From Pseudothermotoga hypogea DSM 11164 = NBRC 106472 (GTDB taxonomy: Bacteria > Thermotogota > Thermotogae > Thermotogales > DSM-5069): 64,000 nucleotides of DNA. Within the stretch, counting starts at the first letter, position 1. Each line of letters begins with the position of its first letter. Both the position numbers and the translations under genes were made by a program. Of the stretch, positions 59,443 to 63,612 are shown one piece after another. The notes below the pieces were generated by a model. The model searched no databases. It worked only from the letters and a program-made list of their open reading frames with translations, and was not told where the DNA came from. The stretch spans positions 124,001-188,000 of the forward strand of contig NZ_CP007141.1 in the NCBI RefSeq assembly GCF_000816145.1, given 5' to 3'.

Positions 59443-61116
59443 TCATACTTTCGATACGAGCAATTTTGCCAGTCGTTCACTTCCCAAGATTTTTGCCAGT
59501 TCCTCGATCGAAGCTTCCCTGATCTGCTGAAGACTGCTGAATTTCTGCAACAACTTTTTCCTCCTCTTCGGACCTATCATTGGTATTGTCTCTATGATCG
59601 ACTCGAGCAGATACTTGTCTCTCAATTTTTGATGGAAAGTGTTGGCGAACCTGTGTGCTTCATCTCTTATCACCACGAGTAAGCGTATCACGGGATGATC
59701 CTTTGGCAGAGACATTTCACCTTCGTTCGTGCAAACTGTCTCTTCTGCCTTGGCCAAACCGACAACGGCACACTCTTTCTTGATCTCACGCAGACCGTCG
59801 AATGCTGCCCGAACCTGTGCAATTCCTCCATCCACGAAGACCAGATCGGGGGTTTGATGCTTTGAGTATCTACGTTTCACCACTTCCCGAATGGCGGCCG
59901 GATCGTCGTTAGCCACGCTTTGGAGTTTGTAATGCCTGTACAACGATTTAATGGGCAGGCCGTCTTTGAACACGACGAGGGAAGCCACCGTGAGTTGGCC
60001 TTGCAGGTGTGCCACATCGATACCATCTATGGTCCTCGGAACGTTCTGAAGTTTAAGCAGTTCTTTGAGCTGTTCAAGCGCTTTGATGCTGAGTTCCAGT
60101 TTCTGTGCGCTCAGCTGAGCGTTCTCCAAAGCCTTCCTGAGCAGTTCTGCCTCCGTTTCATCTGCCGGAGGCCTTATTTGTGCTTGGAGCTTCAACTTTA
60201 CAGGTCTTCTTGTCAGAACCAGCTCCGGAAGTTCGTTTCTGTTGACTACGTAGTAGTGAAACAGAAAATTTTCGATCCTGGTTGAATCCAGGCTGTAGTT
60301 GAGTTTCGCTACGATGTTTCCACCTCTCACGCGCAGCACGACATAACATCTGCCATTGTTTCCGATGACGTCCAAATTTCGCCACGGTTCGAGCACCACG
60401 CCCTGGTTTTCCAGAAGTCGCTGCAGATTCAGAAGAAGATCTCTGTACTTGGCGGCGTTTTCGAAGTCAAGCATGGAGGCGTGCTTTTTCATCTTCTCTT
60501 CAAGAAGTTTGAAAGTTTCCCGTGTCTCACCCTTCAAAAACCTTCTCAGCGGTTCGATGCTCAAATTGACGTACGTTTCTGGATCTATCCCTGAAGAACA
60601 GGGTGCAAGGCATCTGTGTAGGTGGTACTCCGCGCACGGTTTCTTCACCCTCTTCAAATCTCTCTCACACGTTCTGAACTGGTACACCTGTTGCAAATAG
60701 TCCAGCAAGTTTCTCAACAACGTGATGTTCGTGTATGGACCGTGGTATTCTCCTTCGAGACTTCGCTTTCTCACTATTCTCACCAAGGGGAAGTCTTCCT
60801 TCGTGATCTCAACGTAGGGATAATACTCGCTCTCTTTGAGCATGACGTTGTACTTGGGCTTGTGCTGAAAGATCAAACTGGCTTCCAACAAGAGTGCCTC
60901 TTTTTCGTTGGAAACCACCAGATAGTCCAGTTCGAGGGCTTCCTTCATCAGTGCCTGCACCTTCGCATTCTTTCTATGCGACGAATCGCTGAAGTAAGTC
61001 ATCAATCTGCGGCGCAGATCCTTGGCTTTACCTATGTAAAGATACTCTTTGTCTCCATAAAAGATGTACACACCTGGTTTATTCGGAGCGAGCTCTGCCT
61101 TCCTTCGAAGATCCAC
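59443..61116 (-). CDS. uvrC: Excinuclease ABC subunit C (UvrC)
   Basis: Makes both cuts in nucleotide-excision repair. The GIY-YIG nuclease is at the start (PGVYIFYGDKEYLYIGKAKDLRRRL), the UvrB-binding UVR motif near residue 205 (FENAAKYRDLLLNLQRL), the RNase H-like nuclease with DGIDVAHLQGQLTVASLVVFKDG and FVDGGIAQVRAA, and a C-terminal helix-hairpin-helix (IPMIGPKRRKKLLQKF). 557 aa, slightly shorter than the E. coli enzyme. GTG 61116 follows GGAGGT by 6 bases. mfd, its pathway partner, is in another unit of this window. Confidence 0.97.
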   Translation of the reverse strand: MDLRRKAELAPNKPGVYIFYGDKEYLYIGKAKDLRRRLMTYFSDSSHRKNAKVQALMKEALELDYLVVSNEKEALLLEASLIFQHKPKYNVMLKESEYYPYVEITKEDFPLVRIVRKRSLEGEYHGPYTNITLLRNLLDYLQQVYQFRTCERDLKRVKKPCAEYHLHRCLAPCSSGIDPETYVNLSIEPLRRFLKGETRETFKLLEEKMKKHASMLDFENAAKYRDLLLNLQRLLENQGVVLEPWRNLDVIGNNGRCYVVLRVRGGNIVAKLNYSLDSTRIENFLFHYYVVNRNELPELVLTRRPVKLKLQAQIRPPADETEAELLRKALENAQLSAQKLELSIKALEQLKELLKLQNVPRTIDGIDVAHLQGQLTVASLVVFKDGLPIKSLYRHYKLQSVANDDPAAIREVVKRRYSKHQTPDLVFVDGGIAQVRAAFDGLREIKKECAVVGLAKAEETVCTNEGEMSLPKDHPVIRLLVVIRDEAHRFANTFHQKLRDKYLLESIIETIPMIGPKRRKKLLQKFSSLQQIREASIEELAKILGSERLAKLLVSKV

Positions 61117-61136: not shown

Positions 61137-61164
61137 ATTTTACTCTGTCGTTCTTCACTGGCAA
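61137..61164 (-). promoter_or_regulatory. Promoter of the uvrC operon
   Basis: TTGCCA (61159-61164) and TAAAAT (61137-61142) on the minus strand, spaced 16 bases. The start point is expected near 61130, about 14 bases before the uvrC GTG. Its -35 stands 9 bases from the -35 of the divergent feo promoter. Confidence 0.7.
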
Positions 61165-61173
61165 GAAAAGTCC

Positions 61174-61202
61174 TTGACGTTCCCAAGGGGTGGTGGTAAT
61201 AT
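61174..61202 (+). promoter_or_regulatory. Promoter of feoAB
   Basis: TTGACG at 61174-61179 and TAATAT at 61197-61202, 17 bases apart. The start point, near 61209, falls inside the palindromic operator that follows, a layout suited to repression. Confidence 0.75.
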
Positions 61203-61206
61203 TATT

Positions 61207-61225
61207 ATTGAGAATGAATCTCAAT
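61207..61225 (+). promoter_or_regulatory. Palindromic operator, probable iron-regulator (Fur/DtxR-type) site
   Basis: ATTGAGA and TCTCAAT form a perfect 7-base inverted repeat around ATGAA. It covers the predicted transcription start of feoAB. The core TGAGAATGAATCTCA resembles Fur-type sites in size and AT-rich symmetry but differs from the classic box, so Fur, DtxR or another metal repressor could bind. The regulator gene is not in the window. Confidence 0.65.
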
Positions 61226-61246
61226 AAGAAGAGGGGAGATGGCACC

Positions 61247-61684
61247 ATGTCGCTCTCGGATGTTCCCGTAGGCTTTGAGGCAAAGATAATTTCCGTACCG
61301 GATGATGACGTGGGCAGCAGGCTGTTATCCATAGGTTTTGTTCCGGGCAACAGCGTGAAGGTGATCAGCTGTGCTCCCTTAGGCGATCCGAGAGTCTACA
61401 TGGTCATGGGTAAGATGGTGACGCTGAGAAACGATGAGGCCAAGCGAATCCAAGTGTCTATGGAGGATGAAATAGAACAACTCTCGAACGTTACCGAGGG
61501 AAGCTGGCGGGTTATTCATCTGGTCGGAGGGCGGAATTTTCGTGACAAGCTCAGATCCATGGGCATCGACATCGGCAGCACCGTGAAAGTCATTTCGAAG
61601 GGTGTCGTCGAAACGAACAGAGGAGTGTTCAGGATAGGCTTGGGGATGGCCAGAAGGATCTACCTCAGGAGGGATGATGTTTGA
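61247..61684 (+). CDS. feoA: FeoA protein with two tandem FeoA domains
   Basis: Small SH3-like cytoplasmic partner of the FeoB iron transporter. Usual FeoA has about 75-85 aa; this one has 145 aa and two copies. The first is about residues 1-73 (LSDVPVGFEAKIISV, GSRLLSIGFVPGNSVKVIS) and the second about 74-145 (LSNVTEGSWRVIHLVGG, RDKLRSMGIDIGSTVKVIS). ATG 61247 follows GAGGGGAGAT; other in-frame starts (61214, 61190) fall in the operator and promoter. Its stop overlaps the feoB TTG as TTGA. Confidence 0.93.
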   Translation: MSLSDVPVGFEAKIISVPDDDVGSRLLSIGFVPGNSVKVISCAPLGDPRVYMVMGKMVTLRNDEAKRIQVSMEDEIEQLSNVTEGSWRVIHLVGGRNFRDKLRSMGIDIGSTVKVISKGVVETNRGVFRIGLGMARRIYLRRDDV

Positions 61685-63612
61685 CAATCCGGGTCGCACT
61701 CTGCGGAAATCCCAACGTTGGAAAGACCAGTTTGTTCAACGCACTCACTGGCATGAGACAGTACGTTGCCAACTGGCCGGGTGTAACAGTCGAGGTCAAA
61801 GAAGGTGTGAGGAGTTGGAAGGGTCATCAGCTCATCATCACAGATTTACCGGGTACTTACAGCTTGTTCGCCACTTCGTTGGACGAAAAGATAGCGAGAG
61901 ATTTTCTCCTCTACAACACCCCTGACGTTGTCGTGGTGGTCGCTGATGCACTTTCGATGGAACAGGGATTGTACCTTCTTTTGGAAATACTCGAACTCGA
62001 GGCCAGAGCCATTTTGGTTGTGAATGCAATAGACGAGGCCAAAAAGAAAGGATTGATCATAGATAAGCAAGAACTTTCGAAACATCTGAAGGTGCCCGTC
62101 GTGCTCACGAGCGCGCTGACCGGCGAGGGCATACATGAGCTGCTGGATTGCATAGTCTCAACGGCCTCCACGGAACAGAAGAAGGTGCTCTTCAACTTCA
62201 GCGACGAAACCGAGAAAATGATCCAACAACTGGCCACGTTGATAAAAACCCAGGTTGGTGAATCGGCTTCACGTTGGTTCGCTATAAAGTACCTCGAGGG
62301 AGATCCGCACACGGTGGAACAACTCTCGCGTTTCGATCTTCAATCAAGCGTCAAGCCAGGGAGTTTGAAGAGCCAAATCGCTCGAGAACGTTACGATCAC
62401 ATCCAGCTCATCGTCAAGGAATCGGTCGCGGCAATTTCCAAGGAACTTTCCATGAGCGAAGCCATCGATCACGTTCTGACCCACAAATTCATTGGCATAC
62501 CAGTGTTCCTCGCACTGATGTATCTGGCGTTCAAGTTTGCTTTTGAAACGGTCCAACCGCTGAGCGATCTACTCGAGAACACGTTCAGTCGTTTGGCAGA
62601 CCTCGTGACGGCTCACTTGGGTGATGGAATGATCGCCTCGATGCTCGCCGATGGAGTCTTAGGTGGCGTGGGTGCCGTACTCGTTTTCGTTCCGAACATT
62701 TTCGCGCTCTTTTTCTTGCTTGGAATAATGGAAGATTCAGGCTATCTACCACGAGCCGCTTTCGTCATGGATAGAGTCATGTACAGTCTGAAACTGTCAG
62801 GCAGGTCTTTCATGTCCTTCCTCCTCGGTTTCGGATGCTCTGTACCCGCGGTGCTTTCAACCAGGGGCATGCCGGACACACGGGAGAGGATTGTGTCCGT
62901 GCTGTCTGTTCCCTTCATCTCCTGCAGTGCTCGATTGCCGGTTTATCTTCTGATCGCATCGATCTTCTTCAGCCGAAACCAAGGTATGGTGGTTTTCTCA
63001 ATCTATCTGCTGAGCATGTTCGCCGCCATGATCAGCTCACTCGTCTTGAACAAGGTCATTTTCAAAGGTCAACGCAGCGTTTTCATTCTCGAACTTCCAA
63101 GGTACAGACTGCCGTCTTTCAAGAATCTTACGCTGTACACGTGGCTGAGGGGTAAACATTTCCTTGTCAAGGCAGGCACGATCATCTTCGTATCCTCGCT
63201 CGTCCTCTGGGCGCTGATGTACTTTCCAAATCCAAACGATGTGACACAGTCGTTCGCTGCACAGATTGGTAGAGCGGTCTCGTTCGTTCTCAAGCCTTTG
63301 AAGTTCGACTGGCGTGCTTCTACGGCCCTGTTCTTCGGTGTCGCGGCGAAGGAGATCATAGTTTCGACGTTCGGCATGCTGTTCAACACGACGGACGAAG
63401 GCCTGGCGGCACAACTTTCACAGTTGTTTGACCCCGTGACGGCGTTCAGTTTCATCGTCTTCGTCATGGCGTACATTCCGTGCTTCGCAACGCTCGCGAC
63501 CATCAAGTCGGAGATCGGTACCAAGTACGTAGTCATCACAATCTTCTACAGTCTCTTCATCGCTTACGTGTTGGCACTCGCTGTGAGAATGATGGGAGGT
63601 ATCTTCGTATGA
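61681..63612 (+). CDS. feoB: Ferrous iron transport protein FeoB
   Basis: Membrane Fe(II) transporter with a cytoplasmic GTPase domain, 643 aa. G1 GNPNVGKT at residues 9-16, G3 DLPG at 55-58, G4 NAID at 115-118. The membrane part starts near residue 270 with two gate halves; GCSVPAVLSTRGMPDTRERI and FISCSARLPVYLLI hold the conserved cysteines, and FFGVAAKEIIVSTFG is in the second half. TTG 61681 follows AGGAGGGATGATG. It overlaps feoA and the next gene by 4 bases each. Confidence 0.97.
   Translation: MTIRVALCGNPNVGKTSLFNALTGMRQYVANWPGVTVEVKEGVRSWKGHQLIITDLPGTYSLFATSLDEKIARDFLLYNTPDVVVVVADALSMEQGLYLLLEILELEARAILVVNAIDEAKKKGLIIDKQELSKHLKVPVVLTSALTGEGIHELLDCIVSTASTEQKKVLFNFSDETEKMIQQLATLIKTQVGESASRWFAIKYLEGDPHTVEQLSRFDLQSSVKPGSLKSQIARERYDHIQLIVKESVAAISKELSMSEAIDHVLTHKFIGIPVFLALMYLAFKFAFETVQPLSDLLENTFSRLADLVTAHLGDGMIASMLADGVLGGVGAVLVFVPNIFALFFLLGIMEDSGYLPRAAFVMDRVMYSLKLSGRSFMSFLLGFGCSVPAVLSTRGMPDTRERIVSVLSVPFISCSARLPVYLLIASIFFSRNQGMVVFSIYLLSMFAAMISSLVLNKVIFKGQRSVFILELPRYRLPSFKNLTLYTWLRGKHFLVKAGTIIFVSSLVLWALMYFPNPNDVTQSFAAQIGRAVSFVLKPLKFDWRASTALFFGVAAKEIIVSTFGMLFNTTDEGLAAQLSQLFDPVTAFSFIVFVMAYIPCFATLATIKSEIGTKYVVITIFYSLFIAYVLALAVRMMGGIFV

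Follow-up and report, generated by a model that had tools for sequence, protein, structure and literature searches.

A predicted Fur operator at the feoAB promoter of Pseudothermotoga hypogea and its conservation among Thermotogota relatives

Introduction

The Fur boxes of E. coli and Vibrio read GATAATGATAATCATTATC and AATGATAATAATTATCATT in the available text of PMC7536154, and classic Fur boxes are given also in a part of PMC11353095. In the delta-proteobacteria, for which the available part of PMC545781 states that no sites were found with the E. coli Fur profile, a sequence termed the dFUR-box, WTGAAAATNATTTTCAW, lies before feoAB, and the smallest published Fur regulons of this group consist of feoAB and a few genes (PMC545781). 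The Fur-feoAB1 operator of Magnetospirillum gryphiswaldense was proven by footprint and structure, as described in the accessible sections of PMC4506495; it was crystallised with three engineered changes from native (TTAATTGCAAATCATTTGCAATTGC), the recognition arginine of the repressor (MgFur) contacts a conserved guanine of the operator through two hydrogen bonds, and the mutant is without DNA binding (PMC4506495). No paper on a Thermotoga Fur box was among the matches listed from the open-licence PMC literature, and a subscription paper might hold one. RegPrecise, we presume, may hold such a box as well.

Here, the region between uvrC and feoA of Pseudothermotoga hypogea is compared with these systems. 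The analysed stretch of 64,000 nucleotides, referred to as the window, corresponds to G000:C1:124001-188000, with G000 denoting the single-contig genome of 2,165,416 bp.

Materials and methods

FeoB was sought in 61 genomes (that of P. hypogea and 60 relatives), and the sequence upstream of feo was readable in 57. The genomes dropped as unreadable were G011, G053, and G054, which are without a FeoB-grade match, and G048, in which the contig stops at feoA. The upstream stretch comprised the 400 nt before feo, less in G031 (229 nt) and G033 (358 nt), and was measured upstream of FeoB in G045 and G057, where FeoA was not found. G046, G009, and G035 each have another feoB locus (L094, L092, and L093, respectively) that differs from the first and is devoid of the site; these three were left uncounted, and contig L033, which came from the contig search for relatives and is apparently the contig of G003 (both 16803 bp, L095), was counted once.

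Mismatch searches listed only part of their matches and were hence not used for claims of absence, for which R1, a model of the site built from sequence alone, was used. With R1, 150 first-look candidates were scored per genome (150 of 1713 in G000). The search covered nine of the 11 family genomes, with G003 (81% complete) and G005 (71% complete) left out, and 20 further genomes, which yielded 32 distinct non-feo sites at E ≤0.3, all of them inspected.

The Fur-family tree was built from 71 fetched Thermotogota proteins (34 Fur, 19 PerR-like, three beside them, and 15 Zur-like) and three references. Residue counts per clade refer to these 71 proteins rather than to every Fur-family match, and genomes whose proteins were not fetched were assigned a Fur-clade protein at a score of at least 103 bits to the G000 Fur.

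Results

The genes uvrC (59443..61116, minus strand; 557 aa, GTG at 61116) and feoA (61247..61684, plus strand; 145 aa, ATG at 61247) are divergent neighbours, back to back; their start codons are 130 bp apart. The name uvrC is taken from a preliminary description of this DNA and presumably fits. FeoA carries a tandem pair of FeoA domains (two stretches matching Pfam FeoA, 1.3e-26), and a purine-rich GAGGGGAG upstream of its ATG is the likely ribosome site. The feoA gene overlaps by 4 bases with feoB (61681..63612, plus strand), which encodes a ferrous iron transporter of 643 aa (TIGR00437, 618.3 bits against a cut-off of 315.65). Matches across most of the tandem-domain FeoA were found in the feo operons of many relatives.

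The back-to-back promoters of the preliminary description are borne out as sigma-70-like consensus matches. The putative feo promoter (61174..61202, plus strand) consists of TTGACG (61174-61179), a spacer of 17 bp, and TAATAT (61197-61202), extended by a TG one base ahead of the -10 box, while the putative uvrC promoter (61137..61164, minus strand) consists of TTGCCA (61164-61159), a spacer of 16 bp, and TAAAAT (61142-61137); the two -35 boxes are parted by nine bases (61165-61173). Two further, overlapping plus-strand readings, TTGACG-18-AATATT and TTCCCA-17-TATTAT, were given by the promoter scan. With the distance of 7 bp between -10 box and start stated for T. maritima in the available text of PMC3636130, transcription of feo would start at about 61209.

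The predicted operator (61205..61227, no strand assigned) is an inverted repeat of 23 bp, TTATTGAGA-ATGAA-TCTCAATAA, which spans the predicted feo start, as had been proposed. The perfect ATTGAGA-5-TCTCAAT repeat reported earlier is real, but it had been stated too short, in that exact complementarity extends two bases further on each side of 61207-61225, to arms of nine bases around a loop of five. The 19-bp core, ATTGAGAATGAATCTCAAT (61207-61225), starts 4 bp past the -10 box TAATAT, within the promoter of an iron-uptake gene. This is the sole exact copy in the window, and looser matches there are meaningless, because three places with at most three mismatches were found where shuffling gives an expectation of 4.56. 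Dinucleotide shuffling of the 130-bp uvrC-feoA gap produced arms of at least seven bases in 1613 of 20000 cases and of at least nine in 106 of 20000, so that a 7-base arm alone is weak evidence. The feo palindrome by itself is suggestive, not conclusive, and could be due to chance; conservation decides.

The preliminary description had held that absence of the palindrome before feoA in relatives would speak against the operator, a check that the operator withstood. The site was found before feo in 46 of the 57 readable genomes, with at most three mismatches to ATTGAGAATNATTCTCAAT in 45 and with five in G022, and the other 11 show at least six mismatches within the upstream 400 nt or the shorter stretch. 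Among shuffles of 59 upstream stretches (172 nt), at most three mismatches were reached in 4 of 5900 and at most five in 230 of 5900. Five mismatches alone therefore prove nothing, and the G022 site, at -106, was counted only because it lies immediately past a -10-like box. By kinship, the site is present in all 11 genomes of the window's own family (as the exact 19-mer in seven), in 38 of 44 in the order, and in 8 of 13 from other families of the class.

A -10-like hexamer (at least 5/6) lies no more than 30 nt upstream of the site in 43 of the 46 site-bearing genomes. It ends 3–4 nt before the site in 21 of these and 2 nt before it in one, overlaps the first two bases in seven, and ends 9–15 nt before it in 14. 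For the window, the automatic pick was the overlapping TATTAT; TAATAT, which comes with TG and TTGACG and lies 4 nt ahead of the site, is the better reading. With a start placed 7 bp past the -10 box, the site would cover the start in 29 of the 43 genomes and begin 2–8 nt beyond it in 14. The alignment of 45 sites has eight invariant columns and a consensus, TTATTGAGAATGATTCTCAATAA, that is symmetric about a central G, from which the window site departs in a single base of the right half (AATCTCAAT). The site has its inverted repeat in a 7-1-7 or 9-1-9 arrangement, with a single base at the centre.

G000 encodes two members of the Fur family that score well against Pfam, a Fur and a PerR-like protein, together with one MntR-like protein of the DtxR family; a third Fur-family match is marginal (23.9 bits, cut-off 23.1), and its ORF is presumably ArsR-like. 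The likely cognate Fur has 153 aa (G000:C1:1350428-1350886) and matches the Pfam FUR domain with 113.1 bits (cut-off 23.1). Its gene lies downstream of what we take to be a nusA-like gene, and that of the PerR-like paralogue beside one assumed to be infB-like. The protein carries H35, Y58, R59, E83, H93, H95, C98, C101, C138, and C141, and belongs with Fur regulators by its FUR domain, Glu/His metal ligands, two CxxC pairs, and Tyr-Arg recognition pair; which of these residues serve as metal ligands follows an assignment that we presume. Its best solved match is the Fur chain 9ire (7e-34) and its best NCBIfam model a Bacillus-type Fur, although no NCBIfam Fur equivalog cut-off was reached (NF051892, 137.6 bits against 220).

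In the tree, the Fur clade of 34 rows has a support of 97/90 and joins the Fur chain 9ire weakly (83/54). The 19 PerR-like proteins group with 2fe3, a peroxide operon regulator, at 94/74, with three proteins of family f5 beside them, and the third clade of 15 proteins, to which we attach the label Zur-like by assumption, has no member in G000. In the recognition helix, Arg is found in 34/34 of the Fur clade and Asn in 18/19 of the PerR-like clade, and Tyr-Arg in 15/15 Zur-like proteins; the guanine matching the arginine contact of MgFur is invariant in 45/45 sites. The metal site holds Glu in 34/34 of the Fur clade and Asp in 19/19 of the PerR-like clade, a contrast that does not settle the matter, because Asp is present in the Fur reference 9ire as well.

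A Fur-clade protein and the site occur together in 45 genomes, the protein only in four, the site only in one, and neither in seven (Fisher p 9e-6, ignoring kinship). The protein occurs without the feo site in G045, G051, and G057 of family f4 and in G050, whose Fur sits on a long branch, and the site occurs without the protein in G043, the assembly of which is 81% complete. No Fur-family match at E 0.001 was obtained in G013, G029, G031, G033, G035, and G037, all of which are without the site. Since these six Fur-less genomes group as a single clade in the tree of FeoB, the co-absence represents about two independent events, not seven. G060 keeps PerR-like and Zur-like proteins and is missing both the Fur-clade protein and the site, which separates Fur from its paralogues.

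Upstream of feo in G060 (L215 / L083) stands TTAAGGTTTGCCTAACTT, and this genome has one DtxR-family match. The sequence resembles, as we take it, a DtxR/IdeR box, which suggests a change of regulator. In the second feo locus of G035 (L218:2301-2954, minus strand), DtxR and FeoA parts are joined in one 217-aa ORF before feoB, and in that of G009 (L257:1312-3186), DtxR, FeoA, and FeoB are consecutive genes; both second loci are without a Fur-type site.

The search before other iron genes that had been proposed for the motif found none in G000 among the candidates scored, and four sites before genes of the iron-uptake type in three relatives of other families. Across the nine family genomes searched, feo was the only site under E 0.01 among the 150 first-look candidates scored per genome. 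The 11 weaker family sites that were inspected (one in G000, at 2092715, and ten elsewhere) all lie inside ORFs, that of L169 overlapping a likely start codon. The four weaker model matches of G000 (2092715, 1938254, 1406462, and 1236072, the last in an ORF of only 90 aa) and its six pattern matches (L100-L103, L212, and L213) are likewise all within ORFs. With feo as the only strong site among these 150 candidates per genome, Fur looks like a one-operon switch in the family.

Among the 32 non-feo sites of the further genomes, four precede iron-uptake-type genes in G024 (two), G056, and G028, at moderate E values of 0.009–0.045 per genome. One of them lies before a Peripla_BP_2/FecCD ABC operon (L250, E 0.009), of which other chelates could be the cargo, and the others before FTR1 permease genes (L251, E 0.016; L252, 0.029; L256, 0.045). 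Two sites precede cation-efflux genes in genus g6 (L255:2164-2185 in G042 and L280:2046-2065 in G022), assigned by Pfam Cation_efflux in L255 and by sequence likeness only in L280, and these genes are perhaps a metal-efflux target. A further site belongs to a peroxiredoxin-nitroreductase fusion (L244:2312-3313, G019), where it lies in the longest ORF just before the likely ATG. A kinase-like gene has one site at its edge (L289), three sites are without a clear target (L245, L247, and L248), and 18 fall inside ORFs of at least 100 aa, probably by chance.

The remaining three sites lie in a shared repeat-rich gap (L242:1912-2825, L249:1928-2602, and L254:1934-2687, from three genomes of genera g6 and g14 in family f3), which is long, holds only short ORFs, and has similar neighbours in each genome. 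The feo-type site scores E 7.5e-4, 3.7e-4, and 0.02 in L242, L249, and L254, respectively, and TTACCA/TGGTAA repeats number 18, 9, and 11 against shuffle means of 1.45, 0.75, and 1.19. An Rfam search of this gap gave no match. The gap is possibly the gene of a non-coding RNA under Fur control.

Discussion

The palindrome is very probably the operator of a Fur repressor, from which Fe(II)-Fur would repress feo at the start site; of the two paralogues, the 153-aa Fur and not the PerR-like protein is the most likely regulator. With plentiful Fe(II), a metal-loaded Fur dimer would bind the inverted repeat of 19–23 bp over the predicted feo start and prevent transcription of the feoA-feoB operon from starting; on a drop in iron, Fur would release the operator and ferrous iron uptake would be turned on. 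The metal-dependent repression suggested in the preliminary description is thereby retained as the likeliest model, with the palindrome kept in most of the readable genomes.

A PerR-like protein, as a sensor of peroxide or manganese, might be thought to own the operator, as G000 has both paralogues and the Fur-less genomes are without both, and the site before the peroxiredoxin-nitroreductase gene of L244 would suit PerR. This reading is highly improbable: G060 has kept its PerR-like protein yet has no site, the PerR-like clade carries Asn where Fur has the guanine-reading Arg, and in relatives four of the sites lie before genes of the iron-uptake type. Alternatively, the feo mRNA might carry the palindrome as a 5'-terminal hairpin that acts in stability or translation. 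The exact 9-5-9 complementarity of the repeat would suit this role, a start a few bases further upstream would let the whole hairpin be transcribed, as predicted for the 14 genomes in which the site begins past the start, and the arms pair in register at 86.9% against 37.7–52.8% with slid partners, as for any palindrome. In the window, however, the predicted feo start lies inside the left arm. Arm covariation (0.122) is no better than in shuffles (0.108, with 76 of 500 as high; 45 sites, 36 distinct), and arm pairs changed on both sides number 3 against 3.7 in shuffles. Given the eight invariant columns and covariation at shuffle level, the sequence is kept rather than the pairing, and on these grounds the hairpin was set aside as extremely improbable. 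Further against it, an Rfam search of L034 at gathering thresholds gave no match, and the palindrome is missing together with Fur.

Beyond a Fur operator at feo, it had been proposed that the back-to-back promoters compete for polymerase and so tie uvrC to iron, in which case iron starvation, with feo on, would lower uvrC. Two -35 boxes 9 bp apart are hardly able to both hold polymerase, and the divergent uvrC-feoA order is kept in 11/11 family genomes with gaps of 108–149 bp (searched with the first 250 aa of uvrC). The 9-bp spacing with a clear TTGCCA-16-TAAAAT, however, is found in only two of the 11, G000 and G003, which have the same uvrC promoter boxes, and the remaining nine have altered or displaced boxes: the best uvrC -35 box of G004 overlaps the feo -35 box, a gap of 22 comes from a second-ranked reading in G009, and the promoter scan of the seven others gave nothing comparable for uvrC at this position. 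A divergent uvrC was not found in the examined flank of the other 46 readable genomes, and in five genomes of family f3 (L060, L061, L063, L050, and L052) uvrC shares the strand of feoB and is located downstream of it. The two are neighbours in two families, in different layouts. Fur is unlikely to block uvrC directly, since about 40 bp separate the uvrC -35 box from the operator upstream of it. Competition between the promoters, and with it a lowering of uvrC on iron starvation, is very unlikely, and a coupling of repair to iron found no support. It is quite improbable that the Fur of this family is a near single-operon switch for feo that also passes an iron signal to uvrC by promoter occlusion; if true, nucleotide excision repair would rise with plentiful iron, when oxidative DNA damage is likeliest.

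A Fur box is now predicted for most of the Thermotogota relatives examined and is tied to one of three Fur-family clades. Through this tie, which comes from joint absence, the iron regulons of deep-branching thermophiles become predictable, and the Fur-less clade offers a natural control. The picture of Fur itself is unchanged by this site.

The motif had been considered to differ from the classic Fur box and perhaps to mark the site of a Thermotogota metal regulator; that it stands apart from the Fur box and marks another regulator is not sustained, as it has the published 7-1-7/9-1-9 Fur frame and tracks a Fur protein. The dFUR-box, as given in the available part of PMC545781, shares with the Thermotogota site the 17-bp palindrome frame with one central base and the feoAB target; the Thermotogota consensus, TTGAGAATNATTCTCAA, is changed from it at one symmetric base, and the window site at one more, in the right half. 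The MgFur operator, in the form of the crystal oligonucleotide described in the accessible sections of PMC4506495, has the same 9-1-9 layout (ATTGCAAAT-C-ATTTGCAAT) and is likewise a feo operator, and it is reported to be without the three GATAAT hexamers, as is the Thermotogota site. As engineered for the crystal, it contains ATTGCAAATCATTTGCAAT, in the frame of the Thermotogota site, and differs from the latter at two bases per arm; Fur binding is proven in M. gryphiswaldense and inferred in Thermotogota. With the E. coli and Vibrio boxes, as far as presented in PMC7536154, the site has in common an A+T-rich inverted repeat about one base, and the Vibrio box differs from the Thermotogota consensus at two symmetric positions. 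The site lies outside the classic GATAAT form of the Fur box, with GAGAAT in place of the GATAAT hexamers, and is placed at or next to the predicted start site, not over the -35 and -10 boxes. Judged by these comparisons, the putative Thermotogota operator is a lineage variant of the Fur box and not a new class.
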